From Sipunculus nudus (taxonomy: Eukaryota; Annelida; Sipuncula; Golfingiida; Sipunculidae): a stretch of 64,000 nucleotides of DNA. Below the pieces are notes generated by a model. The model worked only from the letters and a program-made list of their open reading frames with translations. It was not told where the DNA came from and did no database searches. Positions 4,021 through 50,848 of the stretch are shown in pieces. Position 1 is the stretch's first letter. The number at the start of each line of letters is the position of its first letter. Location: positions 31,306,008 to 31,370,007 of the forward strand of contig CM049313.1 in assembly GCA_026874595.1 (NCBI GenBank). Reading direction: 5' to 3'. Made by a program: the position numbers and the translations under genes.

Positions 4021-4240
4021 AGAACAGAATATTTGACTGTTACATAAGTGTGTACTATACCTGCTTATATCTATTCTTCCGACATTGAAATGTTTAATCT
4101 GTTCTTTACATTGTTACATGAATGTTACAGAGGCAGGCAGTCTGTGTGAAGCTGAACTAATTAGTGCAGTAATCTTTATTTCCAGTAAAACTTAAATTTC
4201 ACTAAAACTGAAGAACTTTACCTTCTCTTACAAATTGCTC

Positions 4241-5122
4241 CCTCGTAGGTTTGGATGGTCGTCTTTCCTAGGTTTGTGTGGTGCTCTTTCCTAGATTTGA
4301 GTTGTGCCCATTACTAGGTTTTTACGCTGGTCCTTCCTAGGTTTGTACGGTTCTCCTTCCGAGGTTTGTGTGGGGCTCCTTCCCAGATTTGTGCGGTGTT
4401 CCTTCCTAGGTTCTTACACTACTCCTTTTTAGTTTTGTACACTCCCTCTTCCAAGGTTTGTGAGGTGCTACTTTCTGGGGTTAACGCTGCTCCTTCCAAG
4501 AATTGAACGGATCTCCCTCATAGGTTTGGATGGTACTCTTTCTTAAGTTTGTACACTCCTCTTTCCTAGGTTTGTGAGGTGCTCTGTCTTAGGCTTTTAC
4601 GCTGCTCCTTCCCAGGTTTGTACGCTGCTCGTTCCTAGGTTGGTAACTGCTCCTTCCTAGGTTTGTACGGTTCTCCTTCCTAGGTTTTTACGCTGCTCCT
4701 TTCTAGGTTTGTACACTCCTCCTTCCTACGTTTTTGATAGGTGCTCCTTCCTAGGTTTTTACGCTCCTCCTTCTTAGGTTTGTGGGTGCTCCTACCTAGG
4801 TTTGTACGGTTCTCCTTCCTAGGTTTTTACACTGCTTCTTTCTAGGTTTGTACACTTCTCATTTCGAGGTTTGTGAGGTCCTCCTTCCTAAGTTTGTACG
4901 GCTGCTCCTTTCTAGGTCTGTAAGGTTCTCCATCCTAAGTTTGTATGCTGCTCCTTCCTAGGTTTGTATGCTGCTCCTTCCTAGGTTTGTGTAGTGCCCT
5001 TCCTAGGTTTGTGTGGTGCTCCTTTCTAGGTTTTGTATAATCCTCCTTAGGTTTGTACAGTGCTCCTTTCTAGGTTTGTACAGTGTTCCTGTCTAGATTT
5101 CTACGGTGCACCTGCCTAGGTT
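4241..5122 (+). repeat. Minisatellite, about 24-25 bp unit, roughly 36 copies
   Basis: Variants of a unit reading TCCTAGGTTTGTACGGTGCT plus CCTT repeat head to tail over about 880 bp. Copies vary at several positions and by one or two bases in length. The array lies between two family E copies. It does not stay open in any frame. Confidence 0.9.
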
Positions 5123-5304
5123 TACTGCTTCGCAAGAGGTTGAACTTATCTTTCCACAGCTAATTTACGCATGATAATCAAATGATTTGGGTATAATTGT
5201 AACAGACTGAAGATTTGAATATTATCATTTTCGCAGTAGTTTCCCTACAGGAGCCACAGACTATTACCTTGCATTGCGAGGTAACAAATAAATGACTTTA
5301 TTAT

Positions 5305-15019: not shown

Positions 15020-15147
15020 CCATCATCCTAATAAATCAGCTTATATTACCACACAAAACCACTGAATATTTGTCTACCCCTCCTTCCAAATCATAATTTA
15101 TAATCATAAATAACAGCTGAGGGCTGTGACCCATGGGTCCCTTGTTT
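15020..15147 (+). repeat. Family C 3' end, separated from any visible 5' end
   Basis: The last 35 bp read aacagctgaggg, then the hairpin GACCCATGGGTC (15128-15139) and CCTTGTT, the standard family C terminus. The preceding ~100 bp resemble the sequence before the terminus at 34051. No matching AGCTCAGCTGAC start is seen upstream, so this is a 5'-truncated or recombined copy. Confidence 0.6.
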
Positions 15148-16528: not shown

Positions 16529-16779
16529 AACAAATGGTAGCAGCTGCATGTAGAATAAGGTCACTGTAACCTATGTCAAAGATTTTGAGCACTCTTGGGG
16601 TCTTTTTTGCCCATTGTTCAAGGCTTCTTGAATTCAGCTCAGCATCATATTGGGCCTCTAGTTTGATACTTTTACTCGCAAGTGGGCAAGTGATTAACTG
16701 TTAATGTCAATCCCTGCACCCATACAGCCATAAAGATGTAGCAGACACCAATATCACAGTTACCAAACTACCTCTACTT

Positions 16780-17210
16780 TTTAGCCCTCACACTCACATA
16801 AAGGCTGATGGGCTTTTGTCTTAACCCATTCTGTCCAGCAGGTGTGTCTGGGTGTTAACTTTCACTTTGTGAACTGGAATATCTCAAAAGAATTAAACAT
16901 GGCTACTTCATTTTTTCAGTTTATATGTACAATAACAAAACCTGAGTCAAGTTTGAAAATGGGTCACGTTGACCTACCTTTCTAGGTCATGGAGCTATTT
17001 ATATAAAAAATGTTGTTGGCTTATTTCTTAGGAACCACTCGATGCTACATGTATTTCTAGTTCAGGTTTACCACTTTAACTATGGCCAAGATATATATCC
17101 AAGATGTATGAACAGATTTTTCATATCAATAGAGATTTTTCATATCAGTTACCACCCATGTACACTTTTCTTTTAGCTGAGGTTTTTCTCAGCTTCTCCT
17201 GATATTCTAG
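16780..17210 (+). mobile_element. Family D element, internally deleted (about 430 bp)
   Basis: It begins TTTTTAGCCCTCACACTC and ends with agctgagg, a weak hairpin (TCAG..CTGA) and TATTCTAG. These are the same ends as the complete 1.03-kb copy at 52816-53847. Only one internal unit with ggtcacgttgacct is kept. The 91-codon minus-strand frame across the 3' half is a shadow. Confidence 0.7.
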
Positions 17211-18755
17211 TTTACTTATACACACAACAGAATACACACAGAATAAGCAACAAGAAATAATTCCCATCAACTGTAAATATAACACAAAATTGACAAATTT
17301 AAAGCCAAGGTCAATTTCAATCAAGGTCTTCACCCTTAATTGAATAAACTCAGACCCTCTGCCCCATATGTATATAGATGCAAATTCAAAGAAAATATAT
17401 GTCCAGCCAGGAATCAACAAGGCACAAATGTTTGATTTAACTGTTTGACTTAACTCTTTTCTTTACATCCATTAGCTCCCAGGGAAATCTCCATGGAAAC
17501 TTGAAAGAAATTCATGTTGACCTAAATTCTGGGAACTATGTGGCAAAACATGATTTAAAGCACACTGTAATTAAGTCACAATTCTTTTTGGGATGATTGA
17601 AGAAATATTTTGTTTGTTTGAATGTCTTATCTAAACCTCAAGGCAGTCAGCATGCAGAGGACAAGTAGAATAGACTTAAGCAGTTCTCCAGTTTGTCATT
17701 TAAATTTAAAATTTAACTGCAATTAATCCATTTGTGTCAAGATTTCATACAAAAGTTAAAGAATGTGTATAATTATTGCATAAATTACTTTGACATTAGC
17801 CAGTCTTGTCCGTCTGTGGTAGCTGCATAATTTATTTAACACTAGTGGTGCCATTTATATGTATAAACTTTGTTTGTCTGAGTATGTTTGACTGATTCTC
17901 ATTTGTTGACTTACAGCTGAGGTGGTTCTGGTGTAATATTGTCAAGATCACTCATTTTCTGACTTTTATATGAATTGGAAGATTGGAAAACATAGACACT
18001 TGGCTGCAATAACTAACATACTTCACTTCCTATTGCTTCTCCACTAAAAGAGCTTTCTGTAAGGCATTCATTCAATTATCTACACACCCAGGCATAAAGT
18101 ATTACCAACATAGCAAAGCCATGTGGTATAAAACAGTCATTACCAAAAGTCATTCTTACTTAACACAGGAGAAACTGAATAAACAAGTGGCAATTTTGAA
18201 ACTGTCCTTGACGTGACAGCTTCCCTGATGGCCAGTTATATGGAGGGAACAATAAAATACAGTCCTTATGGTGGAGACTGATTTGATACATAGCACATAC
18301 ATTCCCTTGGTAGATGACGGCACAGTGGCGGGAAGTCCTCTAGCTCAGGCCAAGGATTGGCCTTACACTTACAGCTTCACATGGAAAAGGCTATTAATCT
18401 ATAGGCGTCATTTTGTGTGGCAGCAGGAAACCTATGGAGATTTTGGCTTAGTTCTTGGATCAGATTAACAGGCCATGTCACCATTAGACCTCTAGTCTAT
18501 CATACTACAACTCTGATAAATAGACCATTAACTGAGCATCCTTGGACAGGTGAAAGAGAAGTGGTAAATCACCACTCATTCCACAGTTAGTTGTCTGACA
18601 GCTGGTATTGAAAGTGAACCTATAGGTAAAAATGATACATGGGTATAACATGAACATGCAGACTAATTTCTTGGGTGACTGCATATACATCAAAGATTAT
18701 ATACAAAGTTGTCATGAGTTAAGTTTTACCATGGCGACAGTTTATATATATATTT

Positions 18756-19032: not shown

Positions 19033-20177
19033 TCTTGTGTGGAAGTTAAAGTTGAGACCCTGGATTTCTTGTGTGGAAGTTACAGCATAGACCCTGGTTT
19101 TCTTGTGTGGAAGTTACAGCTTAGACCCTGATTTTCTTGTGTGGAAGTTGCAGCTTAGACCCTGGTTTTCTTGTGTGGAAGTTGCAGCTTAGACCCTGGT
19201 TTTCTTGTTTGGAAGTTACAGCTTGACCCCGGTTTTCTTCTGTGGAAGTTACAGCTTAGACCCTGGTTTTCTTGTTTGGAAGTTACAGCTTAGACCCTGG
19301 TTTTCTTGTTTGGAAGTTACAGCTGGACCCCGGTTTTCTTGTGTGGAAGTTACAGCTTAGACCCTGGTTTTCTTGTGTGGAAGTTACAGCTTAGACCCCG
19401 GTTTTCTTGTTTGGAAGTTACAGCTGGACCCCGGTTTTCTTGTGTGGAAGTTACAGCTTAGACCCTGGTTTTCTTGTGTGGAAGTTACAGCTTAGACCCT
19501 GGTTTTCTTGTGTGGAAGTTACAGCTTAGACCCTGGTTTTCTTGTTTGGAAGTTACAGCTTGACCCCGGTTTTCTTGTGTGGAAGTTACAGCTTAGACCC
19601 TGGTTTTCTTTTTTGAAAGTTACAGCTTAGACCCTGCTTTTCTTGTTTGGAAGTTACAGCTGGACCCCGGTTTTCTTGTGTGGAAGTTACAGCTAAGACC
19701 CTGGTTTACTTGTGTGGAAGTTACAGCTTGGACCCTGGTTTTCTTGTTTGGAAGTTACAGCTGGACTCCGGTTTTCTTGTGTGGAAGTAACAGCTTAGAC
19801 CCTGGTTTCTTGTGTGGAAGTTACAGCTTAGACCCTGGTTTTCTTGTGTGGAAGTTACAGCTTAGACCCTGGTTTTCTTGTTTGGAAGTTACAGCTGGAC
19901 CCTGGTTTTCTTGTGTGGAAGTTACAGCTGAACCCTGGTTTTCTTGTGTGGAAGTTACAGCTTAGAGTCTGGTTTTCTTACGTGGAAGTAACAGCTTAGA
20001 CTCTGGTCTTCTAGTGGGGAAGTTACAACATTGACTCTAGTTTCCTTTTGTGGAAGTTACATAGTAGACCCTGTTTTTATAGGAAGTTACAGCTTGGAAC
20101 CTGGATTTCTTTTGTTGAAGTCGCAGCTTAGATTGTGGTTTTCTTGTATGGAAGTTACAGCTTAGACCCTCGTTTTC
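19033..20177 (+). repeat. Minisatellite, 34-bp unit, about 33 copies
   Basis: The unit, written in two parts, is GACCCTGGTTTTCTTG then TGTGGAAGTTACAGCTTA. It repeats head to tail with variants (GTTTGG for GTGTGG; CTGGACCCCGG for CTTAGACCCTGG). The variants alternate in a pattern that suggests block duplications. Copies at both edges are more diverged, as expected when arrays grow from the middle. A 95-codon frame (19678-19965) crosses it only because 3 x 34 = 102 is divisible by three. Confidence 0.97.
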
Positions 20178-22792: not shown

Positions 22793-24160
22793 TAGCTCAG
22801 CTGACTGAAAGTCATCTAAGCTATAGCGATCACTCTTTGTCCGGTGTCTGTCCGTCCATTTACCAGGCACAAATCTTAACTGCTGGACCTAGAATTTTCT
22901 AACTTGAAATACTGGGAGGTCAATAAAATATCTCCTTGAAAACCTGAAATTAGGTCTCTGTTACCCATATCCTCCGAGCTATGGGGCTCAGAATTAACCC
23001 CCCCCCCCCAAGAATAATTGAAAATTTGACACAAAAGCTCCAGTATCTCAACAACTAATGCATTGATCACCATGATTCTTTGCATGTATATTCATCATGG
23101 AGTGTATCATCAGTTTTTGTAGACTGGTGGTGCCACCTGGATGTTTTCCAATTTTTATGCATTTTTTTCACTATTTTAGCGACCTTTAAAGATGTGGTTA
23201 TCCATTAACAGGGCACAAATCGTAACCACTGGACTTAACATCATTTTTCTTTGTATCCTGGAAGGTATCTCAACATCTGATGCATTGATCATTATGATTC
23301 TGTGCATGCATATTCATCATGGAGTGTTGCATCAGTTTCTGTTGACATAAATCTTAACCATTGGTTCAAGAATCTTCTAACTTGACAACCAAGGATGTCC
23401 ATGAAAAATCTCCATGAAAAACCTGAAATTATGTCTCTTTTACCAATATTGTCTGAGCTATTGCGCTTATAAGTACCCCCAGAATAATTGAAAATTTGAT
23501 ACCAAAGCAGGGCACAAATCATAACCATTGGACCTAGAATCTTATTATTTAACATCCCATGAGTTCCATGAGTAGTCTCTTTAGAAACCTGAAATGAGGT
23601 CTCTGTTACTAATATTCTCTGAGCTATGGGGATTATAAGCACCCCCCCCCAAATAATTGAAAATTTGATTCAAAAGCAGGGCACAAATCATAATCATTGG
23701 ACCTAGAGTCTTCTTATTTGACATCCAGGGAGGTCCATGAGTAGTCTCCTTAGCAATCTGAAATGAGGTCTCTGTTACTAATATTCTCTGAGCTATGGGG
23801 CTTATAAGCACCCCCCCCCCCCCCCAAATAATTAAAAATTTGATTCAAAAGCAGGGCACAAATAATAACCATTGGACTTAGAATCTTTTAACTGGACTGA
23901 AATTTAATCACTGTGACCTATATTCTCCAAGTTACAGGGCATAATTTCCAGAAATAATGCAAATACACACAAATTGCCAGATTCCTTAGGAACGGCTGAA
24001 TTGATTGTCATCAAATTTGTTGTGTTTATTGGTTTTGAAGATCTTAAGGTAATATGCATGAATGATGATGCCACCTACATTATCGTAATTAGTTGCCTGT
24101 GCAAGGACATTTTGTTAACATATCAGTCAGCTGAGCATCATGACCCATGGGTCACTTGTT
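22793..24160 (+). mobile_element. Family C element, short form (1.37 kb), both ends present
   Basis: The 5' end AGCTCAGCTGACTG folds with the following AGTCATCTAAGCT. Near the 3' end AGTCAGCTGAGC (24125-24136) is the inverted copy of the first bases, followed by a perfect 14-bp palindrome TGACCCATGGGTCA (24141-24154) and CTTGTT. It is inserted in a T-run with no clear target duplication. The inside holds three to four units of about 170 bp, each with a variable C-run and the phrase gggcacaaatcataacc. No protein is encoded. The end structure fits a non-autonomous Helentron-type element (HINE); this is inference. Confidence 0.75.
22860..23960 (+). repeat. Internal tandem units of about 170 bp in the short family C element
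   Basis: The phrase cacaaat-ataaccattgga recurs near 23513, 23681 and 23855, and in diverged form near 22866 and 23213. Each is followed by cctgaaatgaggtctctg, gagctatggggcttataag and a C-run. The C-runs differ in length between units, from about 5 to 14 C. Confidence 0.75.
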
Positions 24161-24942: not shown

Positions 24943-25029
24943 AATGCATATACATGCACATGGAACACAGCTATATTTCATGCATATATGTACATACATA
25001 TATACTTTAATATACTTTAAACTAAAATT
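24161..25029. other. Noncoding DNA with a TA microsatellite
   Basis: TA repeats lie at 24902-24938, with TATGCATA-rich text around them. No gene was recognised. Confidence 0.45.
24902..24938. repeat. (TA)n microsatellite
   Basis: About 18 TA units. Open frames on both strands over it are repeat artefacts. Confidence 0.95.
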
Positions 25030-26172
25030 TTAACACACAATGTTTACTCCCAGCCTGAAGTCTTGCTTTTAAACTAAATTGTTAAAACAAAAAGATGTCT
25101 ACTCCCAACCTGAAGCCTTGCTTTTAAACAAAAATGTTAACACAAAACGATGTCTACTTCCAGCCTGAAGTCTTGCTTTTAAACTAAAATATTAACAGAA
25201 AATGATGTCTACTTCCAGCCTGAAACCTTGCTTTTGACCAAAAATTGTTAACACAAATTGATGTCTACTCCCAGCCTGAAGCCTTACTTTTAAACTAATT
25301 TGTTAACACAGAATCATGTCTACTCCCAGCCTGAAGTCTTGCTTTTAAACTTAATTGTTAAAACAAAAAGATGTCTACTCCCAACCTGAAGCCTTGCTTT
25401 TAAACAAAAATGTTAACACAAAATGATGTCTACTTCCAGCCTGAAGTCTTGCTTTTAAACTAAAATATTAACAGAAAATGATGTCTACTTCCAGCCTGAA
25501 GCCTTGCTTTTGACCAAAAAATGTTAACACAAATTGATGTCTACTCCCAGCCTGAAGTCTTACTTTTAAACTAAATTGTTAACACAGAATCATGTCTACT
25601 CCCAGCCTGAAGCCTTGCTTTTGACCAAAAAATGTTAACACAAATTGATGTCTACTCCCAGCCTGAAGTCTTACTTTTAAACTTAATTGTTAACACAAAA
25701 TCATGTCTACTCCCAGCCTGAAGCCTTGCTTTTAAACTAAAATGTTAACAGAAAATGATGTCTACTTCCAGCTTGAAGTCTTGCTTTTAAACTAAATTGT
25801 TAACACAGAATCATGTCTACTCCCGGCCTGAAGCCTTGCTTTTAAACAAAAATGTTAACACAAAAAGATGTCTACTCCCAACCTGAAGCCTTGCTTTTAA
25901 ACTAAATTGTTAAAACAAAAAGATGTCTACTCCCAGCCTGAAGTCTTACTTTTAAACTAAATTGTTAACACAGAATCATGTCTACTCCCAGCCTGAAGCC
26001 TTACTTTTAAACTAAAATGTTTACATAGAATGATGTCTACTCCTAGCCTAAAGCCTTGTTTAAAAAAAAAAATGTTAACACAAAAAGATGTCTACTCCCA
26101 GCCTGAATCCCTTGCTTTCAAACTAAAATGTTAACATAAAAAGATGTCTACTTCCAGCCTGAAGCCTTGCTA
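25030..26172 (+). repeat. Minisatellite, about 55-bp unit, about 20 copies
   Basis: Units contain ATGTCTACTCCCAGCCTGAA, then GCCTTGCTTTTAAACTAAA and TTGTTAACACAAA in order. Variants (CTTCCAGCC or CTCCCAACC; TGACCAAAAA or TAAACTAAA) recur in blocks, for example around 25070-25260 and 25350-25530. This suggests duplication of multi-unit segments. Two outlying units lie 9 kb away at 35378-35465. Confidence 0.97.
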
Positions 26173-30690: not shown

Positions 30691-30721
30691 TAGGAGTGTT
30701 CCTGTCACTGGAGTGAATTTT

Positions 30722-31423
30722 TAGCTCAGCTGACTGTAAGTCAACTGAGCTATAGTCGTGGTCCATTGTCCATCGTCCGTCCGGCTGTCAGTCCATCTGT
30801 CTGTCCGTTAGACTGGCACGTTTTGAAATTGTTAGACCTACGAATCCAAAATTTTGCATACTGTTAGATGTCACAAAGATCTCCTACCAAACCGAAAATT
30901 AGGTCACTGTGTCACTGAGAAATTAAGAAAAAACCTCAAATTTCAATTAAAATCCTATTACCACATTTCAGGACTGCCATATATCAAAACCACTGATCTG
31001 TTTTCCTCAATATTTACCAGAAGTATTCTCTTATATATTTCCTATATACATGCCAGAAGTTAAGTTCGTGAAGTGTAAGTTATGAGCCTGGACATAAAGC
31101 ACCTTGTAAAAAATCAGGAAAAATATTTACCCACTAAACATGAAAAATTTTTAAGCTAGTGATTTTTTTCCCAAGTATATAACTTTATTTAATTAAGGTT
31201 CAATTGTATACCCAAAATTAGATCCAAATTTTGTAAATTTTTTAAGTTATTAGCATAATAATAAAATCAGTACCTTAAATTTTGCCCATCTTTGACCATG
31301 GCACGTTTTTTTAATGTGAGTACTGTTAAATTAATTTTCACAGCATGTAAACATAAGTATTTAATTTGTTTAAATCTGAAATTTGAAAATAAAAGCTTGA
31401 AAATTAAGCTAGTTATTGATTTT
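30722..31423 (+). repeat. Family C 5' unit 1 (702 bp), no 3' end
   Basis: It starts AGCTCAGCTGACTG, with GTAAGTCAACTGAGCT completing the hairpin, and a GTCC/GTCT-rich stretch follows. It runs to a T-run at 31421, where a second copy of the same 5' end begins. The two units are clearly homologous along their length, including gcacgtttttttaatgtgagtact. This is a head-to-tail 5' unit. Confidence 0.8.
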
Positions 31424-33649
31424 TAGCTCAGCTGACTATAAGTCATCTGAGCTATAGTCGTGGTCCATTGTCCGTCGTCCGTCCGTCTGTCCGTCCGTCC
31501 GTAGATGTGGCACGTTTTGAAACCATAAGACCTAGGACTCCAAAATTCAGCATAATGTTAGATGTCCCCAAGATCTCCTACCAAGCCGAAAACTGGGTCT
31601 TTGCGACTTTGTTCCTTCGAGAAATTAAGGAAAAACCTCAATTTTTTATTAAAAGCCTATTTTCACACTTCAGGACTGCCTAATATCAAAACCACTCATC
31701 TGTTTTCCCTCATATTTACCATAAATATTTTTCTATATAGTTCCTATGTACATGCCAGAAATTATGTCTGTATTATATAATTTAAAAAAGTTATGGGCCC
31801 AAACATAATGCATTTTGTAAAAAATCAGGAAAGATATTTGATCACTTAACACAAAACTTGTTAAAGCTATGGACTTTTTTTCCAGTAATATAACTTTAAT
31901 TTATCAAAATTAAATTGTATACCCAAAATTAGATCAAAATCTTTTAAATTTTTTAAAATATTAACAAAAATAAAAAATTGGTACCTTAAATTTTGCCCAA
32001 CTTTGACCATGGCACGTTTTTTTACTGTAAGTACTGTGGATTTAATTTTCTCAGCATGTTTTTGTTTGCATTTTGACTGTTAACACCAAAAATTTGAAAC
32101 CAGTTGATCAAAAACTGTAGATTTTATTCAAGTTTTCAAGCACCATGTAACAAATTGTTTACATCAAGCTAGTGTTATGCAGTTTGCAAGAGCTCAGCTC
32201 CCCAGCTTCAGCTCTCAGTTCCTAAAATTTGGCATACAATTAGATGTCTCCAAAATTCCCTACCATGCCAAGAATTTGGTCACTAGGACTTAATACCTTC
32301 GAGATATTAATGAAAAACTTCATTTTTCCATTAAAAACCCATTGTTACACTTCAAGACTGCCTAATATCAAAACCACTGATGTGACTTTAATCATATATT
32401 ATATACATATTTTTCTATACATTTTCTATGCATATGCCAGAAATGATGTCAGTATTGCGTAATTGTTTTAAGTTATGGGCCCAAACATAATGCACTATGT
32501 AAAAAATCAAGAAATATATTTACTCCCTTAACAAGGGGATTGCTGAAGCTAGAGTTTTTTTGCCAGGGATGTAACATTATCTAATCAAGATTCAATTGAA
32601 TACCCCAAATTAGTCCTGAATTTTTCAAATTTTATATGTTATTAGTATCAATATAAAATTAGTACCTTAAATTTTGCCCAACTTTGACCATGACACATTT
32701 GTTTCCTGTGAGCACGGTTGATATAATTTTCATATCATGCACACAAGGATTTCAGCTTTTTAGTTTAGAAAGCTGAAAGAAATTGGCCAAAAATTGTAGC
32801 TTTTATTAATGTTTTTATGAGACCATGTCAGACCTTAACTCTCTCCAGCCCCTCTTGAGTCACCTGTATGTTGACCTTGTTGAACTTTCAGCAAATTATG
32901 CATGCTTGAGGCGAGCCATACACTGTTGCAGGTAGGCAGCTTATGGCCAGCCACAGTTGATCCAGGTGTCCAACCCAACTCATCTAGTAGTTTTAACCAA
33001 CAACATAACAATTAACAATAAATTAATAAAATTTTTGTTTTTTAATAACAAATTAAAGAAAAATAAAAAAGAATTTGTTAGTTTATAATAACAGGAAATC
33101 AACTTGCAGTTACTGATGATAAAAGAATCTTGTATCGATGGATAGAATGTCACGTACTCCAAATAACACCATGCAGTCACCTATGGTATTTTTCAGTTCA
33201 ATTTTAATGATAAAAAAGTAAATTATATTATTCATTACTAATCATTAGGGATCATATGAAGGAAATTAATGATGGACAAAGATGCAGTTGATATTATTAA
33301 TCTAGATTCCTACTGTGTCTAGTGTGTACATTGATGTGAAATTAGTCCAAAATGAATATATTACATTTTTTTTTTTTTAATATAAATAAAAGCCATAAAA
33401 CCAGGTACTTTTGATCATAATTTAAATGTGTGAATTTTGTATATTCTGGATTCTCAACATAATTGTTTGGTGAAAACTGAATAAATGCCAGTAATGGTGG
33501 GAAAACTTTGCAATTGTATTTAAATACGAATATGAATATGTACTCCATTATAAAATGTCTTGCATAAAGAATTGGAATTCAGGTAAAAATGAAAGTATAT
33601 GAATACCAGTGCAAATACTTTCAAAATGCATTCATGAATGCATTCATGA

Positions 33650-34051
33650 ATATATTCTTTAATATTATTTTAATAATCATTTCAGTTATATTTCATTTTA
33701 AAAAATCATAAGATTCTCTTATTATTTTTAATGAAAATTATATTTGGGACAATATTTGTAATTTTTGTTTAATAAATAGTTAAACTCTTATATCATTTGT
33801 TCTGCTTATAAGTTATATGGCCAAGTCAAAATCTGTGTGACAATAGTACTCCATTTGTTAATAAAATAAATGAAATCAATCCTCTTCCCTGTCTCCAAAG
33901 ATAATATCATAATCATACATAAGCTAAACACCAACAACTCATAATAAAGCTTATATTTATTACCACACCAAACCAGCATATGCCTCATTCCTAAATCATA
34001 TTTTTTAATCATATATAACAGCTGAGCGCCGCGACCCATAGGTCCCTTGTT
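33650..34051 (+). mobile_element. Nested 3' segment of a family C-type element
   Basis: The comparable copy reads from the cattcatgaatg block (61702) straight into tctggtcactacagc (61720). Here about 400 bp intervene, ending with CAGCTGAGC, the hairpin GACCCATAGGTC (34033-34044) and CCTTGTTT. No 5' hairpin is present, so the inserted piece is 5'-truncated or belongs to a subfamily with a different start. Confidence 0.6.
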
Positions 34052-34205
34052 TTTCTGTAGTCACTTGCTTTGATTACAGATGCAGGGTCCCACTCCAGGT
34101 CACTGGAAGTCAGCTATGCCAGGGTTTCTGATTTGTTACAGTCACTGGGGGAGATCCCCTGCTGTGACAGGTGTACAGTTATTCTCATGTCACCACCCCA
34201 ATCAC

Positions 34206-34225
34206 CCCCCCCCCCCCCCCCCCCC
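34206..34225 (+). repeat. C homopolymer, about 20 bp
   Basis: The tract occupies the same place in the family C body as C-runs at 61876-61898 and 62560-62575, so it is inherited with the element and not newly arisen here. Confidence 0.9.
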
Positions 34226-35219
34226 GTCCCGCAAACCCAACCCATCAAGTGTTATGCAGTAATTGTTATTGTTTTCACTGTATCTCCTTAATTGTAATGC
34301 TGTTTCCACTCCGATATGCAAAAACTTTCCTTGAAAAAATAATTCAAGGTGTAATCCAGAAGATGCAATGTTGTGTAATGTAGCATTTTTAAAGAAATCA
34401 ATTTTCTTTTAAATGATTTTAACAAATATAAATGAACCCATCAGTATGCTTAAATTATTATAAAATATGAAGCACATTATGGATAAATAAAGACACAATT
34501 AAAAATTGTGAAATCTAAATCAAGTATTATTTTTAGATATTTATTGTTTTGCAGATTTAAAAGATATATTTTTGTGGTAAAAAATAAATAAACATTTGTA
34601 TGCATGATGTGGTGTTATCTGACAAGATTGAGATTTATGATGATGCAATTGAGAATTATGAATCAACTTTTTTATTCAGAAATATATGTTAAATTGGAAA
34701 TGTATAGAAATATAAACTTAAATGAGAAATTATTGATGTGATAAAAAAATCAGGATTTAATACAAACATTTGTTCATTATTTTCCTGCCTCAGCAGAATT
34801 TGAGATCAGGCTTTGTTTGCCCTGTTTTATGTTGTTAATTAGCTATATTTCAACTGTATACATTTCATAAAAAAAATACATGTATATTTAATAATATATA
34901 TTTCACAAAAAAATAGATTCAATTGAACAAATGTGTAAACAGTTAATCGAAAAACCAACTAATGATCATGGTAATAGTACAGGTCATTTGTTCAAAAACT
35001 GCTCACATGCTTTAGTTTCAACATTAGGAAACACATGGTCAGGTCACAAAATATTTTTTGCAACAATTTCTTGCTCATCAATACAAACCAATCATATAAA
35101 CCAACCATGGCCTTTATTACCTCTTCCTCTTACACTTTATCTCCATAAGATATTATTTTAGATTTTTACCTTCAAGGTTAACGTCAGCTGAGCACAGTGA
35201 CCCATAGGTCCCTTGTTTT

Positions 35220-37149: not shown

Positions 37150-37790
37150 AGCTCAGTCAACTGAGGTATAGGAATGGCACTTTGTCTGTCGTCTGTCGGA
37201 TATGCCGTCTGGCCATCTGTCAGCAGGGCACAAACTGTAGCCCCTAACCCTAGAAACCTGTAACTCAATATCCTGGTAGTTTAATAAAAAAGTCTCCTTG
37301 GAAACTAGGTCACTAGGCCATAAAATTTAAGTACCCAAGAATAAAAAAAAATTTGAATCAAAACCTCCAGTATCCATCAATGTATATATTGCCATGAATC
37401 TTGCCTTGAATATTGACCAAGATTAGTTTTGTCAGTTCCTGAAAACTGGTGGCCACCCATATTTTTCTAATTTTTACATTTTGTTCTGTTTTTGAGACCA
37501 CCAATGACTACAGTTTGGTCAGTTTCTCAGCTGTGGTTTCATCCAGTGTCCTTAAACCCAGTGTGTTAATTGATTATGATTGGTTTCTTCAGGTCCTTAA
37601 GACTGGTGGCACCACCTGTATTTTTAGCCAGTCTGTGAGCTTATACGATGGCGCAGCATCATCTGTCCTCCATCCACCGTTCATTAACCCATGCTATCTC
37701 AAAAACTAGCTGTTGGAGCTAGCATCACCAATTTTATGCAAAAAATCAGTCATTTAAACAGCTCTATCAGATTTTGCCTATTTTTAACTC
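37150..37790 (+). repeat. Short family C-type copy and a family B-like 5' fragment
   Basis: From 37150, gtagctcagtcaactgaggtatagg and the units gggcacaaactgtag and ctccttggaaac match the short C form at 41703. From about 37623, ttagccagtctgtgagcttatac plus the phrase tcaaaaactagctgttggagc match the start of family B. Both are truncated. Confidence 0.6.
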
Positions 37791-40700
37791 AGCTAACTTT
37801 AAGTCATATGAGCTATAGTCGTGGTCTGTTGTCTGTCATCCATCCTTCCGTTAGACAGGCACATTTGAAACCTATGAATCCAAAATTTGGCATACTGTTA
37901 GATGTCCCAAAGATCTTTTTTATAGAAATATAAACTTAAAAAAAAAATTGCTGCCATTGATTCCTTTGCACCTGTGCACTGGGACATTAGTTTTTATTGC
38001 AAATGTGTAAAATTGATTTAATTTATAAAATAATTGGATTAGAAAAAATTAAGATCTTATTGAAACATATTCTTGCCTCAGGAGAATGGAATATAAAGTG
38101 ATCAGCTCTGTCTGTCCATCATCTCTGCATTATCATTAAATATATATTAATTATGAAATTATTCCTATAAGCACTGTTGAAATAATTTTCATATATGCTG
38201 TATGTGGATGGATTAAAGCTATTAAAGTCTGAAATTTTAAAGCAACTTATACATTCAGTTGTGTAATATTGCATATGTAAAACTTTAAAACAATTTGATA
38301 TAATAAAAAAATTAAGAAATAATTAAAACTTCATATTTTATCAGCTTTTGTCTGTCTTTTTAGCGAACCTGTGAGCTTATGCGATGGTGTGGCGTCGTCC
38401 GGCATCCGTCGTCCATTGTCTGTACGTTAACCAATACTATCTTGAAAACGGCAAGAGTTAGCATCACAAAATTTTATGCAAAAAATTAGTCATCTAAAAA
38501 ACTCTATCGGATTTCGCTTATTTTTTGGCTAACTGCCGATGATTTTCTTAGATTTTATAAAGAAAAAGCTAAAAAAGCTTTAAAAATCTTCTTCTCTGAA
38601 ACTGTTCAGCCAAATTGTCCAATATTTCACAGAAATGATCCCTGGAACAATCTCTCTCAAGTTTGTTCAAATGATTTAAGTTCGGTGATTTTTGGCTGAG
38701 TTACAGCTAGTTGAACTTAGTCTTCTGTCCAAAAAAGCATACTAAAAATTACAATCCTAGAAACGGCTGGAGCTATCATCACCAAATTTTATGCCAATGT
38801 TGGTCACATGAGTCATATCTGAAATTGAGGTATTGGTTGCGCCACCTGCATTAGCCTTTTTTGTACAGGGGTCATCAGTGCTTGTATCATATGGACAGCT
38901 ACCAAAAACTTCTTCTGTGAAACCATATGGCCAAATTGTTTAATATCGCACAGAAATGATCCTAGGGTATTGCTTTCTGAAGTTTGTTCAAATGGTCTCA
39001 GTTCAGTGATTTTGGCTGAGTTATGGGAATTTGAATTTAGTCATTTGCCATAACAGCGCATTTTAGCTCAGTGGCTACAAAGATCTTCTTCTCAAAAACC
39101 ACTATGCCAAATTCTTAAATCTCACACATTAATTATCCATAGATGTTGATAATTCAAGTTTGTTCAAATGGTTTTGGTTCAGTGATTTTTGGCTGAGTTA
39201 TAGGAAGATTAACTTAGCCATTTTGCTTTATTTTCCCATACGAGTTATAAACCTGCAAAACGTTTTTTGACTGTCGCCACTGAGGCCAATTTGTAAAATA
39301 TTTTACAAGAATCATCCCCTGAATAATTCTTATAATAATTGTCTTTTATGGTTCCAAAGAATGAATTTTGGCAGGATAATAAAGATTGAATTGAGTCAAT
39401 TTACCATATATGTTAGCTGTGTGAAGCAGATACATCTAACCTGGAACCAGTTTATCAGCATCCATTACATCATGCCTCCAGACATTTAGATTTCAGGTTA
39501 TCTTTGGTTAATATTGACAAGAATGTTTTTTAAAAACTTTTTAAAAATGTAGATTTATGATTTTAGATATTCCTCATGCCAGGCAATGTTTACAATCACA
39601 GGTATACGTTGACCCATACTATTTCGAAAACGACTGGAGCTAGCATCATGAAATTTAATGCAAAAAATTAACCATCTGAAAAAAATGTGCATTTTCTCAG
39701 ATTTTATAGAGAGAAAGCTAAAAAAACCTTTAAAGATCTTCTCCTCTGAAATGGTCTTGCCAATTTGTTTAATATTTCACAGAAATGATCTTTTATACCA
39801 TCTCTCTCAAGTTTATTCAAATGGTTCAAGTTCGGTGAATTTTGGCCGAAATACAGGAAGTTGAACCTAGTCATCTGTCCAAAAAAGCATACTAAAATGA
39901 CTATGACAGAAATGGCCAGAGCTATCATCACCAAATTTTATGCCAGTGTTGGTCACATGAGTCATTTATGAAATTCAGGTATTGGTGGCTCAACCTGCAT
40001 TGACTTTTTTTGTACAGGGGTCTTTGGTCATCTGTATATTAACCCATAATTTCTCAGGAATAGCAGGAGCTACAATCCCCAGATTTTATGAAATAATCTG
40101 TCACATATCAAATGTTGTGGTATTCAGCTTATTTTTTTTTATATCTGAATTTACTTAAATTTTATAGGGGAAAAGCTGAAAAACCTTTAAAAGTCTTCTT
40201 GTAAACGGTCCAGCCAAATTGTTCAATATTTTACAGGAATGATCCCAGAGGCAAGCCCTCTCAAGTTTGTTCAAATGGTTTGCATTTGATGAATTTAAGT
40301 GGAGTTAAACGAATTTGAACAGTCATTTGGCCAAGTAAGCATACTGACATAGTTATCTCAGAAATGACAGAAGCTAGCATTACCAAGTATTGTGCAAATG
40401 TTGGTCACATGACTCATATTTGAAGTTGCAGATTTTGTGGTGCCACCTACATTGACTTGTTTTTTATGGGCAAAAACATCATAATTTCAGCCTCTTTCAG
40501 CTTAAAATGTTTATGATGAAACTGTCAAGTTGAATCGTTCAATTTTTCAAAAGAATTATCCTAGGACATGGTTCTTTCAATCATATCAGAAAAGCTTAAG
40601 TTGGTCTTATGGTCATTATTATGTCTAACTCAAACTGAAAACTGCAAAACTGTTCTTCTACAAAATTATTGTTTCAATTATAACTTCTGTAACATGGCAC

Positions 40701-41030
40701 AAAAATTATTCTTAGGTGGCCTTTGTTCAAGTTTACTTGAATGATTTTTGGCAGAATTATTGGACCTTTAACAATGAAATAACTGCATCTTTTATTATTC
40801 TAGATTTTTGGATAAAAAGTTTATGAATATTTCACCTTGAAAAAAAAACATTTTAGCCAAAGTCTTTCAGTATGTGTAAACAGATTTGGCAACAGGCCAA
40901 GATTGTGTCTGTATATTTAAATAGGTAAAGAAACTGACAACTGTTTCAGATTTGGCAATAGATCAAGAGTTCATTAAGTGCAGCCAGATATAGGTCAAGA
41001 GTTCAGTCAGTGCAGCCAAGCACAAGGCAT

Positions 41031-41100
41031 GTGATCCCCTCATGGGTGACAAGTGAACACCTCATGGGCACCATGTGATCACCTCATGGGTGTCATGCCC
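41031..41100 (+). repeat. Internal tandem repeat of family B, about 23 bp x 3
   Basis: GTGATCACCTCATGGG followed by 6-7 variable bases repeats three times. The other B copy (60439-60530) has four units. Confidence 0.85.
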
Positions 41101-41702
41101 CTCAGGGCTGCATGTGGAGCCAATCTGTTTATAGCTTTGGCAGACTGCCTACTGTATCAGATTAGGCAACAGGTCAAGAGTTCACTCAGTGCAGCCAGGT
41201 ACAGGTCAAAAGTTCACCCAGACTAGCCAGGTGCAGGTCATGAGTTCACTCAGTGCAGTAGCCTGAGCCAGCTAATTTGTCACAATTCACTCAGGGCAAC
41301 TGCCTTTCTCACCTAAGCGTGGTCAGCCCCATGCATCAGACTCAAGGTAAGTTTGATATATTGGCCTGATATTTTGACCTGTTTATGTGTCTTTGATGGC
41401 TTTCTCGTTCACAAGACAGGTGTCACCACCTACAATGACTTTTGCACAGTGTGGGACTTTTGTGCCTGCTTATTTCAATAAAGGAATTTGATATATCATC
41501 CTGAAATTGGGCATATTTATACCTATCGAATAGCTTTGTCGTATACAAGACTGGTGGTGCCACCTACAGTAATTTTTGCACAGTGTGTGTCCCTGCTTAT
41601 TTCTCAGGAGGGGTTTGATATATCAGTATGAACTTGGGATATGTATATATCTCTGATAGCTTTGTTGTATACTAGACTGGTGGTGCCAGCTACAATAATT
41701 TT

Positions 41703-42972
41703 TAGCTCAGCAGACTGTAAGTCAACTGAGGTATAGGAATGCCGCTTTGTCCGTTGTCTGTCCGTTAGCAGGACACAAATCATAACAGCTGGTCCTAGAA
41801 ACTTCTAAGTGAACATCCAGGGAGGCCAATAAAAAATCTCCTTGGAAACCTGAAATTAAGTCACTGTAACCTATATCCTTCGAGCTATGGGGCTTGAAAG
41901 TACCCCCCAGAATAGTAAAAAATTTCATACAAAACCTCCAATATCTTGATAATTAATGCATGGTTTGTCATGAATCTTGCCTTGAATATTGACCATGACT
42001 AGTTTTGTCAGTTCCTGAAACGTGGTGGCGCCATCTGTATTTTTTTCTATTTTAACAAATATTTTTCTATTTATTTACTATAAAATGATAACAATTATGT
42101 CAGTTTCTCAGCTGTGATTACATCTGGTGTCCCAAAACCTGATGCGTTTATTGATCACAAGTGGATTCCCTATACTAATCACCCTGTCTGTCTGTTTGTA
42201 TGTCTGTCTGTCTGTCAATCCGTCCATCAACACAAATTAGTTTCCAGATGATAATTCCAGTTTAGTCTGACATATTGGTTTCAAACTTTACTTATAAATG
42301 GCCCACCACTGAAGTAAGAACCATGTCGATTTTGGGGTCCAACGGTCAAAGGTCAAGGTCACAGGACCCATTTCTTTGAAAGGATTTTGTATGTATTTAA
42401 AGCCGAACTTTTCATTGCAAACCTTTCATCTTCAAGATATTGCTAACCTGCCACTAGGGGAAGATTCTGTTTGATTTTTGGGTCATAGGTCAAAGGTCAA
42501 GATCATAGGGCCCATCCATTCACAAATTAGTTTATGGATGATAATTCTGCTTTGGATAGACAGACTGACTTCAAACTTGATTTAATAATGACCAACCACA
42601 TAAGTAAATTCATTTTGATTTTCAGGGTCCAGCGATCTAAGTTGAAGGTCAAAAAAGCCACATCTTTAAAAAGATTGTGGATGCACTGTAAATCAAACTT
42701 TTCATCCTGAACTTTCCAACGTTCACACATGGCTTACTTGCCCAAAGTGAGGAAACCTGTAGAATTTGAGTTTATCTGGTCAGAGGTCAAGGTCACTTAT
42801 TAAAAGATTGTTACAATAATCCTAATGCTGCAAGTTCATAGATATTAAGTTCTAAGATTTTTTGGTCACAAGGTCATTGGTTAAGGTCACAGGACTGTCA
42901 TTCTGAAAAATTTCTTTAAAAATATCCTTATACACAAATTCAGCTGAGCGTTGAGACCCATTGGTCCTTAGT
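41703..42972 (+). mobile_element. Family C element, short form, inserted inside family B (boundaries set by an empty site)
   Basis: The sister B copy reads ctacaatcatttttgtgttgtgtgcacc without interruption (about 61264-61290). Here ctacaataattt is followed by TAGCTCAGCAGACTGTAAG, 1.27 kb of C text, and CAGCTGAGCGTTGAGACCC...GGTCCTTAGTTG before tgttgtgtgcacc resumes. The insertion falls in the T-run and no target duplication beyond T is visible. The inside has ggtcaaaggtcaaggtcac boxes (DR1/DR0-like; 42354-42371) and CTGT runs. Confidence 0.82.
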
Positions 42973-43496
42973 TGTGTTGTGTGCACCCATGCCAAAATTT
43001 CAGCAGTGATGTTTGTGTAATTGTTTCTTATTCAAAATGTTTAGTACCTGCATTGTTCATATACATGAGAAGTAATTGTCAAGCATTGAAGCATTATACC
43101 TGGTGTATTTCCCAATGCACAGGTTCGCATTAGGCCTGTAGGCCTTTTTTTAAATATTAAGTAATTGTGAATGACCTTTTTTATCCTGTAAGCATAGTTG
43201 AATTAAATGAAAATCATATGTATATTATAATCATACAGAGATATTTTAATTCCCATCATTTACACCACAGGCCCCCCCGCCACCCGCCACCACAAGGTTC
43301 TGCAACCTGTCAACTAGGGACATCAGTTATATTTCAACTGTATAGATTTTATAAAATAAAAAATAGATATATCTTATAATATATATTATAAAAAAAATAT
43401 GTCCAATTGAACAAATGTGTAAACCACTGGACTGTCTACAATTTATCAAAAAGTCAACCACTGATCATGGTAATAATATACATCTTATGTTCACAA

Positions 43497-43592
43497 ACTT
43501 AAGGTCACAGGACTGTCATTCTGAAAAATTTCTTTAAAAATATCCTTACAGACAAATTCAGCTGAGCATCAAGACCCATGGGGCCCTAGTTG
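43497..43592 (+). repeat. Second copy of the last ~95 bp of the nested family C element
   Basis: aaggtcacaggactgtcatt through the CAGCTGAGC...GACCCATGG terminus nearly duplicates 42884-42972. It is embedded in long-C body text (the corresponding place at 62250-62280 lacks it). Confidence 0.75.
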
Positions 43593-43830
43593 TTTTCTGT
43601 TAGCACTATTGAATTGAATTTAATATGTATATGCAGGGATGTTGACTCTTACCATTACCCTCCTTAACTGTCAACAGCTTGCCAAAGAGCTAACCTATGA
43701 TTATGGAAATAGTATTAATTTTATGTTTACAAACTGTTCACATGATTCAGTTTCAACATTACAAAACATGGTCAGATCACAAAATATTATCTGCACAATG
43801 TTGTTTCATGTAGATTTATTTTTATCAGAT

Positions 43831-45010: not shown

Positions 45011-45300
45011 AGTTTTAGCTCTGCTGGCTTTCAGTCATGCTAAGCTAAAGCAATCCCCCTCTAAGCGTCTGGCCATCTCACTGTCCATTAACAAAGTACA
45101 AATCATAGCTTTTGAACCCCGAAATTCTAACCTCCCATCCAGATATATATTCTTTGAAAATCTCCTTAGAAACCTAAAAAAGTAGGTAATTGTGATCTAG
45201 CTTCTTGGAGCTAAGTATGTTTTTGTGCTGTTTGGGCCCATAGAAAATCATACTTGTATTCATGTTAAAATCTGTTAACCAAAAGATACCCTCAACCCAT
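45011..45300 (+). repeat. Degenerate family C 5' fragment
   Basis: ttttagctctgctggctttcagtcatgctaagctaaag is a decayed C 5' hairpin, followed by ctgtccattaacaaagtacaaatc and cttagaaacctaaa, as in the short C form. No 3' end is seen. Confidence 0.6.
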
Positions 45301-46800
45301 GAAATAAAAGGTTATGCTTCATCTCCACATAAAACATGATTCCCATGTTAGGTATGAAGAAACGTGGACAGTGAATTTTTCTGAACTGTCATGGAAAGGA
45401 TTACATAATTTTAACTTTATAAAACTTTAAATGTGTGCAATTTTCAAGTGATTCTGTCCTTCATCAGAGCACAAATCAAATATGACCGTAATTCATATGA
45501 GCATTAGCTATGATTCTTTTGTCAGTCCATCTGTCTGTTAAACTGGCATGCTGTAAAGTTAAATTAATTGTACAAAATAACTCAGTGACTGTTAGCCAAA
45601 TTTTTACTAATATGGAGGTCAGTGTGATTAATTTAAGAATTCCCCTGCAATTGCAGTTGCAATTAAATAATCTGCAGTTTGTTTCATCTGGGACTGTACT
45701 GTTTTGATATTAATAAAGATTGGATCATGGGCAATTTTAAAATACAACAAATCTGCTCAAAGGTGTCCTCACTTTGGGCCCCACTATCATACTTGCTTTA
45801 ATTGTTATGGCATTCAGCACTCCCCAAATTTTAACTGTTAAACCAAAGATATTCAAAATTACATGTAGGCAGGTTCTAGTTAACTCCTTGTAAACCCAAA
45901 ATCAGGCATATAATTGTTCTGTGGCTTTTGGTTCTGTATCAAACTGAGTTGTTTTCTGTGTATTATTTCTGATACCTGAATATGTTGGTGTGGCTGCTTT
46001 TATGCTAAACTGCATGGGCAGTAAATATTGCAGATATTTGTGTCTATATGAATTTGCATCAATGTTTATAATGAATAATATTAGATACTTTGGAATATTT
46101 ATGACATTTTTTACATGTTAGCTGTCTTTTCTTTTTAGAAAATTTCCATGTTCAGACATATTTCAAGAATGCCAAAAACTGAAATGTATGATGTCTGCAT
46201 TAACTGTGAAAACTCTTGACACACTTTGCTTTCTAGTAGAACCTTTAAACATAGTTTCTTTATTTTTGTGATAATATATATATTAGTCATGATCAGCTCA
46301 CTGTCTGTCTTCATGAGTTTCAGATGAAGATAATCTCTTATTTTGTGTTGTTAGAGTGACTCAGATGTCTTCAAATGGTAATACAATCTGTGGTTATTAA
46401 TTAACTTACCAGCTGGATACTGGTAAGTATAATGACATGTCTTTTTTATTTTGGCATCTGATATCCCAAAAAGAGCAACAAGACAGTGAGCTGTAATTAA
46501 CTTCAAACCTGATGTTTTGGTGAGAAAAATAAATCTTAGCACGGCAATTAGGCTGTGATAGACTTTGGTTGGCTTCAATTTCAATACTTACATAGAACTG
46601 CAGCAGGTGCTTTAAAATTGTTGAAAGGTTAGTCTAACAACATGCAGTATTCTTATCTAAAGGATGTTTTATGATTAGCGTTTAGTTGATCATGTTTTAG
46701 GCTGACTGAATGCAGCAGAATCGACCAAACAACAAATTCCTGGTCAATGAATAATAAAGTCTCCATGTAAGTCTATGCAACAAATTAGCTTTGAGCTTGC
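45301..46800. other. Noncoding DNA
   Basis: A fragment at about 45450-45560 carries the C-family phrases atcagagcacaaatc and gtcagtccatctgtctgtt. A small hairpin, CTTACCAG...CTGGTAAG, lies near 46406-46428. Otherwise unique. Confidence 0.4.
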
Positions 46801-46821
46801 AACAAATTGTGAACCTCATTA

Positions 46822-47088
46822 GTGAGAGAGTTTCAAAAGTGTCTGGGAACATTCGCGGCGGTTCTCAATTTCTTGCGTGATTTGCAAAGTGTCGCAGAAA
46901 TTTTGAACATGTTAAAAAAATTTGCAAGACAAAATTTCTCTCAAAATAGTCACAGAGGTGTCACTGGTGTCCAGAACCCGACTGGAACATGTCTCGAACT
47001 ATTCCCAAGTCAGTTTCGCCAGTCAGGAAGTGTGAGAACTACAAGACAACTTCATGAGGGTTTTTCAACCTATGCAACTACATTGTGA
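46822..47088 (+). CDS. Unrecognised 88-codon open frame (doubtful)
   Basis: An ATG-to-stop frame crosses a stretch somewhat richer in CpG than its neighbours. The predicted peptide starts with a possible amphipathic helical region (about residues 5-38, Leu/Phe/Ala/Lys-rich) and ends in a polar Ser/Thr/Gly/Gln-rich tail. I recognise no family and see no splice or promoter signals. It may be chance or an old transposon remnant. Confidence 0.15.
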   Translation: MREFQKCLGTFAAVLNFLRDLQSVAEILNMLKKFARQNFSQNSHRGVTGVQNPTGTCLELFPSQFRQSGSVRTTRQLHEGFSTYATTL

Positions 47089-47269
47089 ATATTTTGAGAT
47101 AAAATGAGAGTTCAATGTTTGGGGCACGAAATGTTGTGTGAATATTTCACAAATGATGTGCAGATGTCCTTTGAACACAACATTTTTGTGACGGGTATTC
47201 TAACTCCAGCTGCATTTTGGGCCAAAAACTTGTGTGATGTACAGAAATGGTTGTAAGTACAATTCAGTG

Positions 47270-47403
47270 TGATTGCAAGTGAACATTATAGTGTGGGGGC
47301 ATATGTCACCGAGTAAATTTTCGATGTAAAAAGTGGAGACCCCACATTTTTGTGATCCTAAGACCTTAACCTTTACAAAAAAATATGGTGCCAATTTTTC
47401 TAT
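47270..47403 (+). repeat. Left arm of a 3.5-kb-spaced inverted repeat
   Basis: The sequence from attatagtgtgggggcatat to aatatggtgccaatttt matches the reverse complement of 50632-50765 with many substitutions. Shared blocks include GGGGCATATG, GAGTAAATTTT, and ATGGTGCCAATTTTT. It may be two inverted copies of one dispersed repeat or the ends of a larger element. Confidence 0.6.
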
Positions 47404-47409
47404 GGTGGT

Positions 47410-49680
47410 TTTGTTATTTTTTCAGGTCAAATTTGATTTTAGAGCAAAAATTGAGGGCCAATATATATAAATATTTACTACAGAGGGATATTTTGCAACA
47501 AAACACCTCAGAATGATTAGTAAGATATATTACATCACAATAACTTAGACTAGACACACAACGACTGCATTAAGACGTTTATTCCATTATTAGAGTGCAC
47601 CCGTAGAGCGCATACCTCCGCCAACACATGGATCCGCATCCAGGTCCCCCAGACTATAACTATGAAAAATTAATCAGCTGTTGTATGTCCACCGGTATAT
47701 TGTTCTACAAAATGTCATTGATAAGTTCATTTAAAAAATCATATAGAGACAACAAGTGCACTGGGGTAGTTTGTGCAATGTACACATGGCGGGCTACTTG
47801 CTGATTTCAGGCAACCTGTATCGTACACAGTATGGCTCCGCTTTCCTTTGTTTTAACCAGTGACTGAATATTTGCTTCATTTATACATAACATATGAAAA
47901 TGGCCCTGTTAATCTTCCAATCTTCCACCCGCTGATAGTGCAGGTATAGAAACCCGTCTCTTACGCTTAGTTTATCCAAAGTATCAAAAGGTTCCTAAGC
48001 AATTTAAGGAGTATTTTTATGTTTTGGTCATGATCCAAGAATTAATTTATAAAAGTTTTAGGTGGATGACTATTTTTTTACATATTTTGTAAAGAATAAA
48101 CAACAGACAAAAGGGATACCTTTGACTAGATTTAGTGCCAGATAATGATAAAAGTAATAATAATGATAATAATAATAATTATGATCATATAACCTTAGCT
48201 TTGTACGGGCAATAGCATATCATTTTGGAGCAATTATACCTTCTGTGGAGTAGCTATTTCACTGTTCATTGATAATCTTTTGTAAGCTGTGCTCATCAGG
48301 TAGTTAACAGCAGACAAATATTCACAGACATTTACAGTAGAATGACATTAACATTGAATGAAATGCATGTTTTGCTGAGGAATTCGTTAGGGAATGTGTT
48401 TTTGTAAACAAAACAAAACAAAGAGACCTTAGAAAATTTAGAAGTTTTAGAAAAGTCCGGTTGAAGGAAACAAACTTGAAAATAAATATCGGATCTTAAA
48501 AAAAGTGTCATCATAAGTCATAATGTTATCGTACATTTTACAGATGTTCTTCTATCCCATCTTTACCCCCCCCCCCCAAGGTGTTCTTTTAAAATGATTT
48601 TGTTAGGCGGGCAAATTTAAATTTGTATATTTATGAACCCGAAGAATTCAGGTTATACCAGTACAATAACAAAAACGGACATATCTTAACAGAAACTATG
48701 GCAAAACCAATGGTACAGTTTAAATATAACAATGGTAAAGTTAAATGCTTGTTATTACTGAATTCTTGTCGCTTTTTTTCATTATCCTTAAATGACTTGT
48801 GATGGCACAATGGAAATATAAGCGTTTCATCCGTCCGAACAAGATCACCGGTGCAACATTCTTTTTTTTTTATAAAAAAACAGTGATCTGTAGACCATGA
48901 GCACCCAGCTTGTACTATCTGAATATAATGCTAACTATGAAATGAAGAATGAAGAATAGAACTATTCTTATATTTTATAAAAGCTGATTGGTTTGTCATT
49001 AAATGCAATGTATGTCAGATGCAGCGGCGGAATGTACATCTTTGATTGGAGCCCATTTTTTATCATGTTTATACCAAATAACTCCTGACAAAAAATAAAG
49101 CATTTTATACCTCCTTAACTAATGCTAGTTACTCTTAAATCGTGACCAAGAACAATTTTGATTTAGTGCACAAGATAACAAAATGACGTGTCTTAAACAA
49201 AAAACAAACGCCTTGATTGTAATTAAAGGTTTTTGCATTTCTCTTTTTTCATATTAATTTATTACAATTTTTATAAAGATAATAAAACAATAACAAAATT
49301 GTTTGGATTATAATATTGGATTGGTATAGAGGAAGTCAACATTAAGGTTGTTTTAACAGCACATATAAATTTCCTTTTAAGTACAACGAACTTTTCTGAC
49401 GATGCACATTTTCAAGTAATTTTAAAATTACTAACTCTCAAAGAATCTGAACTTAGTTGGTGTCTCTTACTGCTCGTCCAACTTACTGCTTAATGATCTC
49501 TCCGACGTACACCTAAATAATAAATAGTTAAAAAGTAGAAATAATTAAATCATTATTTGTATGTTCATTTGCCAAATATTAAATTAAATATTAAAACGTG
49601 TCTTATAAAACAATATTTTATTTGAAATGATTTTGGAAGAAAATACAATTGTGTATGAATGTCATAGAGGTCATCATTAT
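47410..49680. other. Unique AT-rich DNA between the inverted arms
   Basis: There is an AAT/GAT-type microsatellite near 48150-48186 and a C-run near 48567-48579. A fragment with gcatacctccgccaacacatgg (47608-47630) resembles a phrase I know from animal dispersed repeats. No exon was supported. Confidence 0.4.
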
Positions 49681-49694
49681 CTCTCTCTCTCTCC

Positions 49695-49729
<35 letters not shown>
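49681..49729. repeat. (CT)n(TA)n microsatellite
   Basis: CT units are followed by about 16 TA units. Open frames here are artefacts. Confidence 0.93.
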
Positions 49730-49733
<4 letters not shown>

Positions 49734-49819
49734 TACAAATAGACGAATCAAATTTTTTCAGACATTTTTACTACTACGTAGTTTCGTGCAACGTGCTGCA
49801 CTCATCACGGTATGATTGA

Positions 49820-49833
49820 TTATATATATATAT

Positions 49834-49895
<62 letters not shown>
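49820..49895. repeat. (TA)n microsatellite, interrupted once
   Basis: Two TA runs are separated by taaata. Confidence 0.95.
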
Positions 49896-49899
<4 letters not shown>

Positions 49900-50236: not shown

Positions 50237-50250
50237 CCGCCAGGTGGCGT
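50237..50250 (+). promoter_or_regulatory. CTCF-like motif
   Basis: CCGCCAGGTGGCGT agrees with the known CTCF core CCASYAGRKGGCRS at 12 of 14 positions and sits in a locally CpG-richer stretch (50220-50260). A single motif match in 64 kb is weak evidence. It also contains a CAGGTG E-box. Confidence 0.3.
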
Positions 50251-50765: not shown

Positions 50766-50848
50766 CACAATTGTTGTGTCTCCAACTATTCTCAAGCAGT
50801 TGCAGCCAAGTGCACACAAGGCAGACATTCTGCCCATTCTTCCACATT

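Follow-up and report, generated by a model that had tools for sequence, protein, structure and literature searches.

The 11 Cg_HINE elements of the oyster Crassostrea gigas are described, in the consulted part of PMC7492417, as a succession of a 5' subTIR, an adjacent complementary IR, a microsatellite, tandem repeats, a 3' subTIR and a palindrome; the tandem repeats are satellite-like, the microsatellite is of the type GTCY, GTCC or GTCK in several elements, and the targets are TT, with no duplication. The same excerpts describe Pearl, DTC84 and MgE of bivalves, which carry short central arrays between flanks (the repeats of Pearl being ~160 bp long). The HINE/DINE-1 elements of mite, mosquito and Drosophila, as far as the available sections of PMC4067079 characterize them, are non-coding and combine subTIRs, a 3' palindrome, boundary Ts (2 to 5 in Culex HINEs) and T-rich insertion without duplication. 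The rolling-circle content of bivalves has also been reported, without element ends in the consulted part of PMC10294476.

We analysed a 64-kb stretch of DNA from Sipunculus nudus, referred to below as the window. The element at 22793-24160 (plus strand) belongs to an ordinary class of mobile DNA: it is a rolling-circle transposon that lacks coding sequence and has hairpin ends, as the oyster elements do. It very probably represents a HINE (a non-autonomous Helentron), namely one of the kind with tandem repeats that has been described from bivalves. This assignment, proposed already in a first-pass annotation of the sequence, is supported by the anatomy and the target site: the ends are modular, the target is a T-run, a nested insertion has a gap-free empty site, and no coding domain is recognisable. 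Every testable HINE trait in the excerpts of PMC4067079 was found in the focal copy or in its nested sister, namely subterminal inverted repeats of at least 11 bp (12/12 in the focal copy), a 3' palindrome (in all seven 3' ends, with a stem that is weak on folding in the three folded), a T-T target without target site duplication (at one site, that of the copy at 41704, with a possible TT), and the absence of recognisable coding capacity, throughout the window. The window thereby provides a further HINE-rich stretch with a clean pair of filled and empty sites, so that the target of one insertion can be established within the window itself.

Modular anatomy of the focal element

Counted from the A of AGCTC at position 22794, the focal element is 1,367 bp long, to which at least one T has to be added. 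It is preceded by eight Ts and starts with the 5' subterminal repeat AGCTCAGCTGACT (22794-22806), which together with a near-complementary inverted repeat (22810-22822, two mismatches) makes up a hairpin at 22794-22822. The self-pairing 5' start described in the first-pass annotation is thus present, and only the second arm as spelled there needs correction, as the focal copy reads AGTCATCTAAGCT and has one extra mismatch. A GTCC-like stretch lies between the 5' inverted repeat and the central tandem repeats (23349-23887, period 169 bp, 3.2 copies). On the 3' side, the subterminal repeat AGTCAGCTGAGC (24125-24136) is a perfect 12-bp reverse complement of GCTCAGCTGACT and matches the 5' repeat at 12 of 12 positions, 24 bp inside the 3' end; a random 12-mer has an exact complement in a random 40-bp stretch at a frequency of ~7e-5 (4/60,000). 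It is followed by the palindrome TGACCCATGGGTCA (24141-24154) and by the terminal CTTGTT (24155-24160), with 24160 as the final base. All these modules are given as read on the plus strand, and both the inverted copy of the 5' motif and the palindrome with its CTTGTT were found as previously annotated.

The order subTIR - IR - GTCC-like microsatellite - tandem repeats - subTIR - palindrome is the same as in the Cg_HINE elements of C. gigas as presented in the excerpts of PMC7492417, a likeness at the level of description; the present elements differ from Cg_HINE in that some stretches bounded by ends of this kind, provided that each is one element, are up to 8.6 kb long. Likewise by description, the short central arrays between flanks recall Pearl, DTC84 and MgE in the same source. 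The HINE/DINE-1 elements of mite, mosquito and Drosophila share with the focal element and its relatives the subTIRs, the 3' palindrome, the lack of coding sequence, the boundary Ts and the T-rich insertion without duplication. According to the consulted sections of PMC4067079, however, the 3' subTIR of mite HINEs lies 38-60 bp from the end, in contrast to 23-24 bp here, and the present elements further differ from the HINE/DINE-1 described there in having both a self-palindromic core, TCAGCTGA, and a separate IR.

Recurrence and boundaries of the ends

With up to two mismatches allowed, the 5' motif has 20 matches in the window (both hairpin arms and the 3' copies being counted), compared to 0.80 expected, and none of 100 shuffles reached this number. 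The 3' palindrome GACCCATGGGTC has seven matches versus 1.26 expected, a count reached by one of 100 shuffles. The six additional 3' ends listed in the first-pass annotation proved real, as did the focal one, each within 1 bp of the position it had been assigned. These seven 3' ends can be aligned without gaps over 37 columns, of which 21 are invariant, and the palindrome is found at a constant spacing in all of them, with one central mismatch in three and an outer mismatch in one. A profile derived from eight 5' ends retrieved those eight and the sequence at 37153-37210 at E < 1e-9, all nine on the plus strand; its minus-strand matches at E < 0.1 are the same hairpins read backwards. The profile of the seven 3' ends retrieved exactly those seven at E < 1e-12, again all on the plus strand. 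Since the rows of each model were used to build it, they match their own profile by construction; this applies to the diverged 5' hairpin at 45017-45046 (plus strand, E 1.5e-14), which is one of the eight rows, and not to the 5' end at 37153-37210 (plus strand, E 4.8e-10), whose first hairpin arm is mostly lost.

Analysis of pairwise identity across the ends reveals sharp boundaries. Among the eight 5' ends it amounts to 24-31% from 60 to 7 bases upstream (random, 27.5%) and 46% at positions -6 to -5, rises to 94% across the four Ts that precede the motif, and is 83% within the motif itself. The seven 3' ends agree best in the hairpin (92%); identity declines to 82.5% over the six bases beyond it and to 67% over another two, after which it stands at 31% and then 26%, compared to the same random value of 27.5%. 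Because identity drops outside the T-run and outside GTT, we infer that the elements start in the T-run and finish at GTT.

Comparison of the last 60 bp, in which HINEs at least 80% identical are grouped into subfamilies according to PMC4067079 (a rule for grouping and not for membership), arranges six of the 3' ends into three pairs with 87%, 87% and 90% identity. The focal 3' end is at most 70% identical to the other six and therefore has no subfamily partner in the window. The single "family C" of the first-pass annotation thus corresponds to one type of end, common to what would be four subfamilies under this rule. In five of the six pairings of 5' and 3' ends tested, 2-4 of the 13 positions are mismatched between the two subterminal repeats; the near-perfect match is seen only in the focal copy among these six, and some of the pairings may be wrong.

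The two hairpins were also assessed by folding. The 3' palindrome is short, with 4-5 pairs, and was not clearly stabler than shuffles in any of the three copies folded (z -0.97, -0.23 and +0.26). The 5' hairpin is modestly stable in the focal copy (z -1.50), and the other four folded gave z values of -5.03, -2.43, -1.90 and -3.43. In the alignment of eight 5' ends 87.5% of the cells pair, versus at most 44% when the arms are slid, and in that of seven 3' ends 88.6%, versus at most 60%. A search for compensatory changes in both hairpins over these same ends found none, and randomly re-dealt partners of the hairpin arms pair as well as the observed rows; the pairing thus reflects common descent rather than covariation.

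Target site and probable mode of transposition

The second complete copy (41704-42973, plus strand) is nested in a long repeat and provides a filled site, the empty counterpart of which lies at 61222-61336 in an uninterrupted copy of the host repeat. The stretch that hosts it spans 37786-43591 (plus strand), and its part 38357-43164 is colinear in blocks with 55525-61465, at 86-92% identity in the self-comparison. The joined flanks of the insertion (55 bp on the left and 60 bp on the right) align to 61222-61336 over 115 bases with five mismatches and no internal gap, and self-BLAST independently places the break at 41703/61276, with similarity resuming at 42972/61275. The empty site contains five Ts; at the filled site, five lie to the left of the element and two to its right. 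The gap-free alignment to the empty copy leads us to conclude that this element entered a T-run and duplicated TT at most; with five consecutive Ts at the target, a TT duplication is inseparable from none, an ambiguity described also for HINEs in the consulted part of PMC4067079. This evidence comes from one paralogous site and concerns the copy at 41704, not the focal one, for which no empty site was found in the window. The 3'-terminal 100 bp of the nested element (42881-42982) recur ~620 bp downstream, at 43499-43600, with 90% identity; the latter segment is the 3' end of the host stretch, and an exchange of 3' ends is possible.

The ends and the target bear on two other classes of mobile DNA. 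A MITE, or foldback element, would be moved by a DDE transposase, with the inverted repeats acting as terminal repeats and with a 2-bp TT duplication. Inverted repeats are indeed found near both ends, and a TT duplication formally fits the filled and empty sites; on the 3' side, however, the repeat is not terminal but set back by 23-24 bp, the two ends otherwise differ from one another, and no duplication beyond TT was seen at the two copies checked. Neither terminal inverted repeats nor a constant duplication having been found, we rejected the MITE of a DDE transposon as very improbable. Constant target duplications were also what the first-pass annotation had named as evidence against its own assignment, and beyond the possible TT none was seen at the copies checked.

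Canonical Helitrons have a 5' TC and a 3' CTRR and insert between A and T. A derivative of these, instead of a Helentron derivative, would agree with the lack of duplication beyond TT and with some of the 3' ends, as the copy at 43573 and the second family described below end with CTAG followed by TT; both the A-T target and CTAG are named for canonical Helitrons in the consulted part of PMC4067079. Yet the 5' end is a T-run followed by AGCTC and not TC, the target is a T-run and not A-T, CTTG is present at five of the seven 3' ends, and paired subterminal repeats are a Helentron feature according to those same sections of PMC4067079. The combination of 5' TC, 3' CTRR and an A-T target was not found, and a canonical Helitron origin was rejected as highly improbable.

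For a HINE, a Rep/helicase/endonuclease supplied by an autonomous Helentron at another genomic location would recognise the subterminal repeats and nick one strand at the T-rich 5' end. The single strand would be peeled off through rolling-circle replication, with the 3' subterminal repeat and the palindrome serving as a stop signal, and would be inserted at a TT with no duplication of the target; passenger DNA that expands and contracts would make up the central tandem repeats and the GTCC-like stretch. These enzymatic steps we infer from the family, the ends, the target and the lack of duplication beyond TT being the parts observed here.

Coding capacity, related repeats and orientation

The window has no listed ORF of 150 aa, and its longest stop-to-stop frame comprises 127 aa. 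Six-frame Pfam scans, in which stops were read as X and which decayed or frameshifted coding remnants could escape, detected no Rep, helicase, transposase or reverse transcriptase in the window, and hence neither the DDE nor the reverse transcriptase domain that, according to the first-pass annotation, would have spoken against a Helentron. No matches were obtained in any of the 15 pieces of the plus strand of 1-46,802 at E up to 0.01, or in any of the 15 pieces of its minus strand at E up to 0.1. For 46,501-63,999 on both strands, one of 12 pieces matched Exog_C, a model for the C-terminal part of endo/exonucleases, with an E of 0.09, which as the sole weak match of the full-window scans was taken as chance; a match to a phage holin model (E 0.64, below its cut-off, in one of three frames) was dismissed. 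An autonomous partner with Rep, helicase and endonuclease was accordingly not found within the 64-kb window. Two scans of viral_contigs with the end patterns gave 0 and 0 matches, and that of genome_contigs a single contig of a Clostridiaceae MAG, taken as chance. A literature search with four end motifs returned two papers, each with one motif and both unrelated as judged by title and abstract.

Several other stretches carry the same kind of ends, all on the plus strand. The longest is a non-coding repeat of 8,578 bp (53876-62453), with both 5' and 3' ends, possibly a composite. A related stretch at 30723-35217 contains two tandem 5' hairpins (30723 and 31425) and two 3' ends (34051 and 35217). 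The 5' hairpin of a further decayed copy is located at 1848-1876, and the 3' end of another copy at 15111-15146. In the head-to-tail pair formed by 30717-31418 and the unit from 31419 onward, the upstream member has retained its 5' end, is missing a 3' end and directly adjoins the T-run that follows. This pair is reminiscent of tandem Helitrons whose inner copies are 3'-truncated, as mentioned in the consulted part of PMC7492417; ordinary tandem duplication is as likely, however, because both upstream units match the 53.9-kb copy only until ~54.6 kb.

These units also bear on the possibility that the whole set of copies arose by segmental or tandem duplication of one old array, with no transposition. 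All copies were found in one window and in one orientation, and at 30-33 kb the units resemble tandem duplicates of local origin, as such a process would predict. Against it, homology stops at the element ends, the flanks differ, and one insertion has a gap-free empty site; with its sharp ends and empty site, the set is most improbably the product of duplication only.

A second HINE-like family is represented by two copies, 52812-53849 and 16778-17212. Its 5' end reads TTTTT-AGCCCTCAGCC, with the complement GGCTGATGGGCT, and its 3' repeat GGCTGAGGGCT is the exact reverse complement of the 5' motif; the 3' side further contains an imperfect palindrome, identified by eye, followed by CTAGTT. The copy at 52.8 kb carries 301-bp tandem repeats. 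In addition, a T-run start close to TTTTTAGCGAACCTGTGAGCTTATG is found four times in the same orientation (2040, 37622, 38358 and 55526), and may be the degraded 5' end of a third family located within the long repeats.

All nine 5' ends, all seven 3' ends and both copies of the second family point the same way. Of the dispersed self-matches (at least 60 bp long and more than 1.5 kb apart), 116 of 124 are same-strand, and the eight inverted matches all run between the same two tandem arrays, located at 26.3 and 30.2 kb. Because the elements are nested and perhaps locally duplicated, these counts are not independent. In the oyster both orientations are reported in the excerpts of PMC7492417, and a literature search retrieved no paper on strand bias in the orientation of HINE or Helentron insertions. 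That insertion or retention of HINEs is strand-biased here, with at least two families with different ends sharing one direction, is a conjecture we consider rather unlikely. Such a bias could reflect insertion into one exposed strand, during replication or transcription, or alternatively selection inside a long intron, and the uniform orientation could seed a genome-wide question, i.e. whether rolling-circle insertions follow a DNA strand. The window also contains tandem arrays at 4236-5123 (period 23 bp), 19033-20177 (period 34 bp), 25016-26171 (period 55 bp) and 50847-51249 (period 47 bp).
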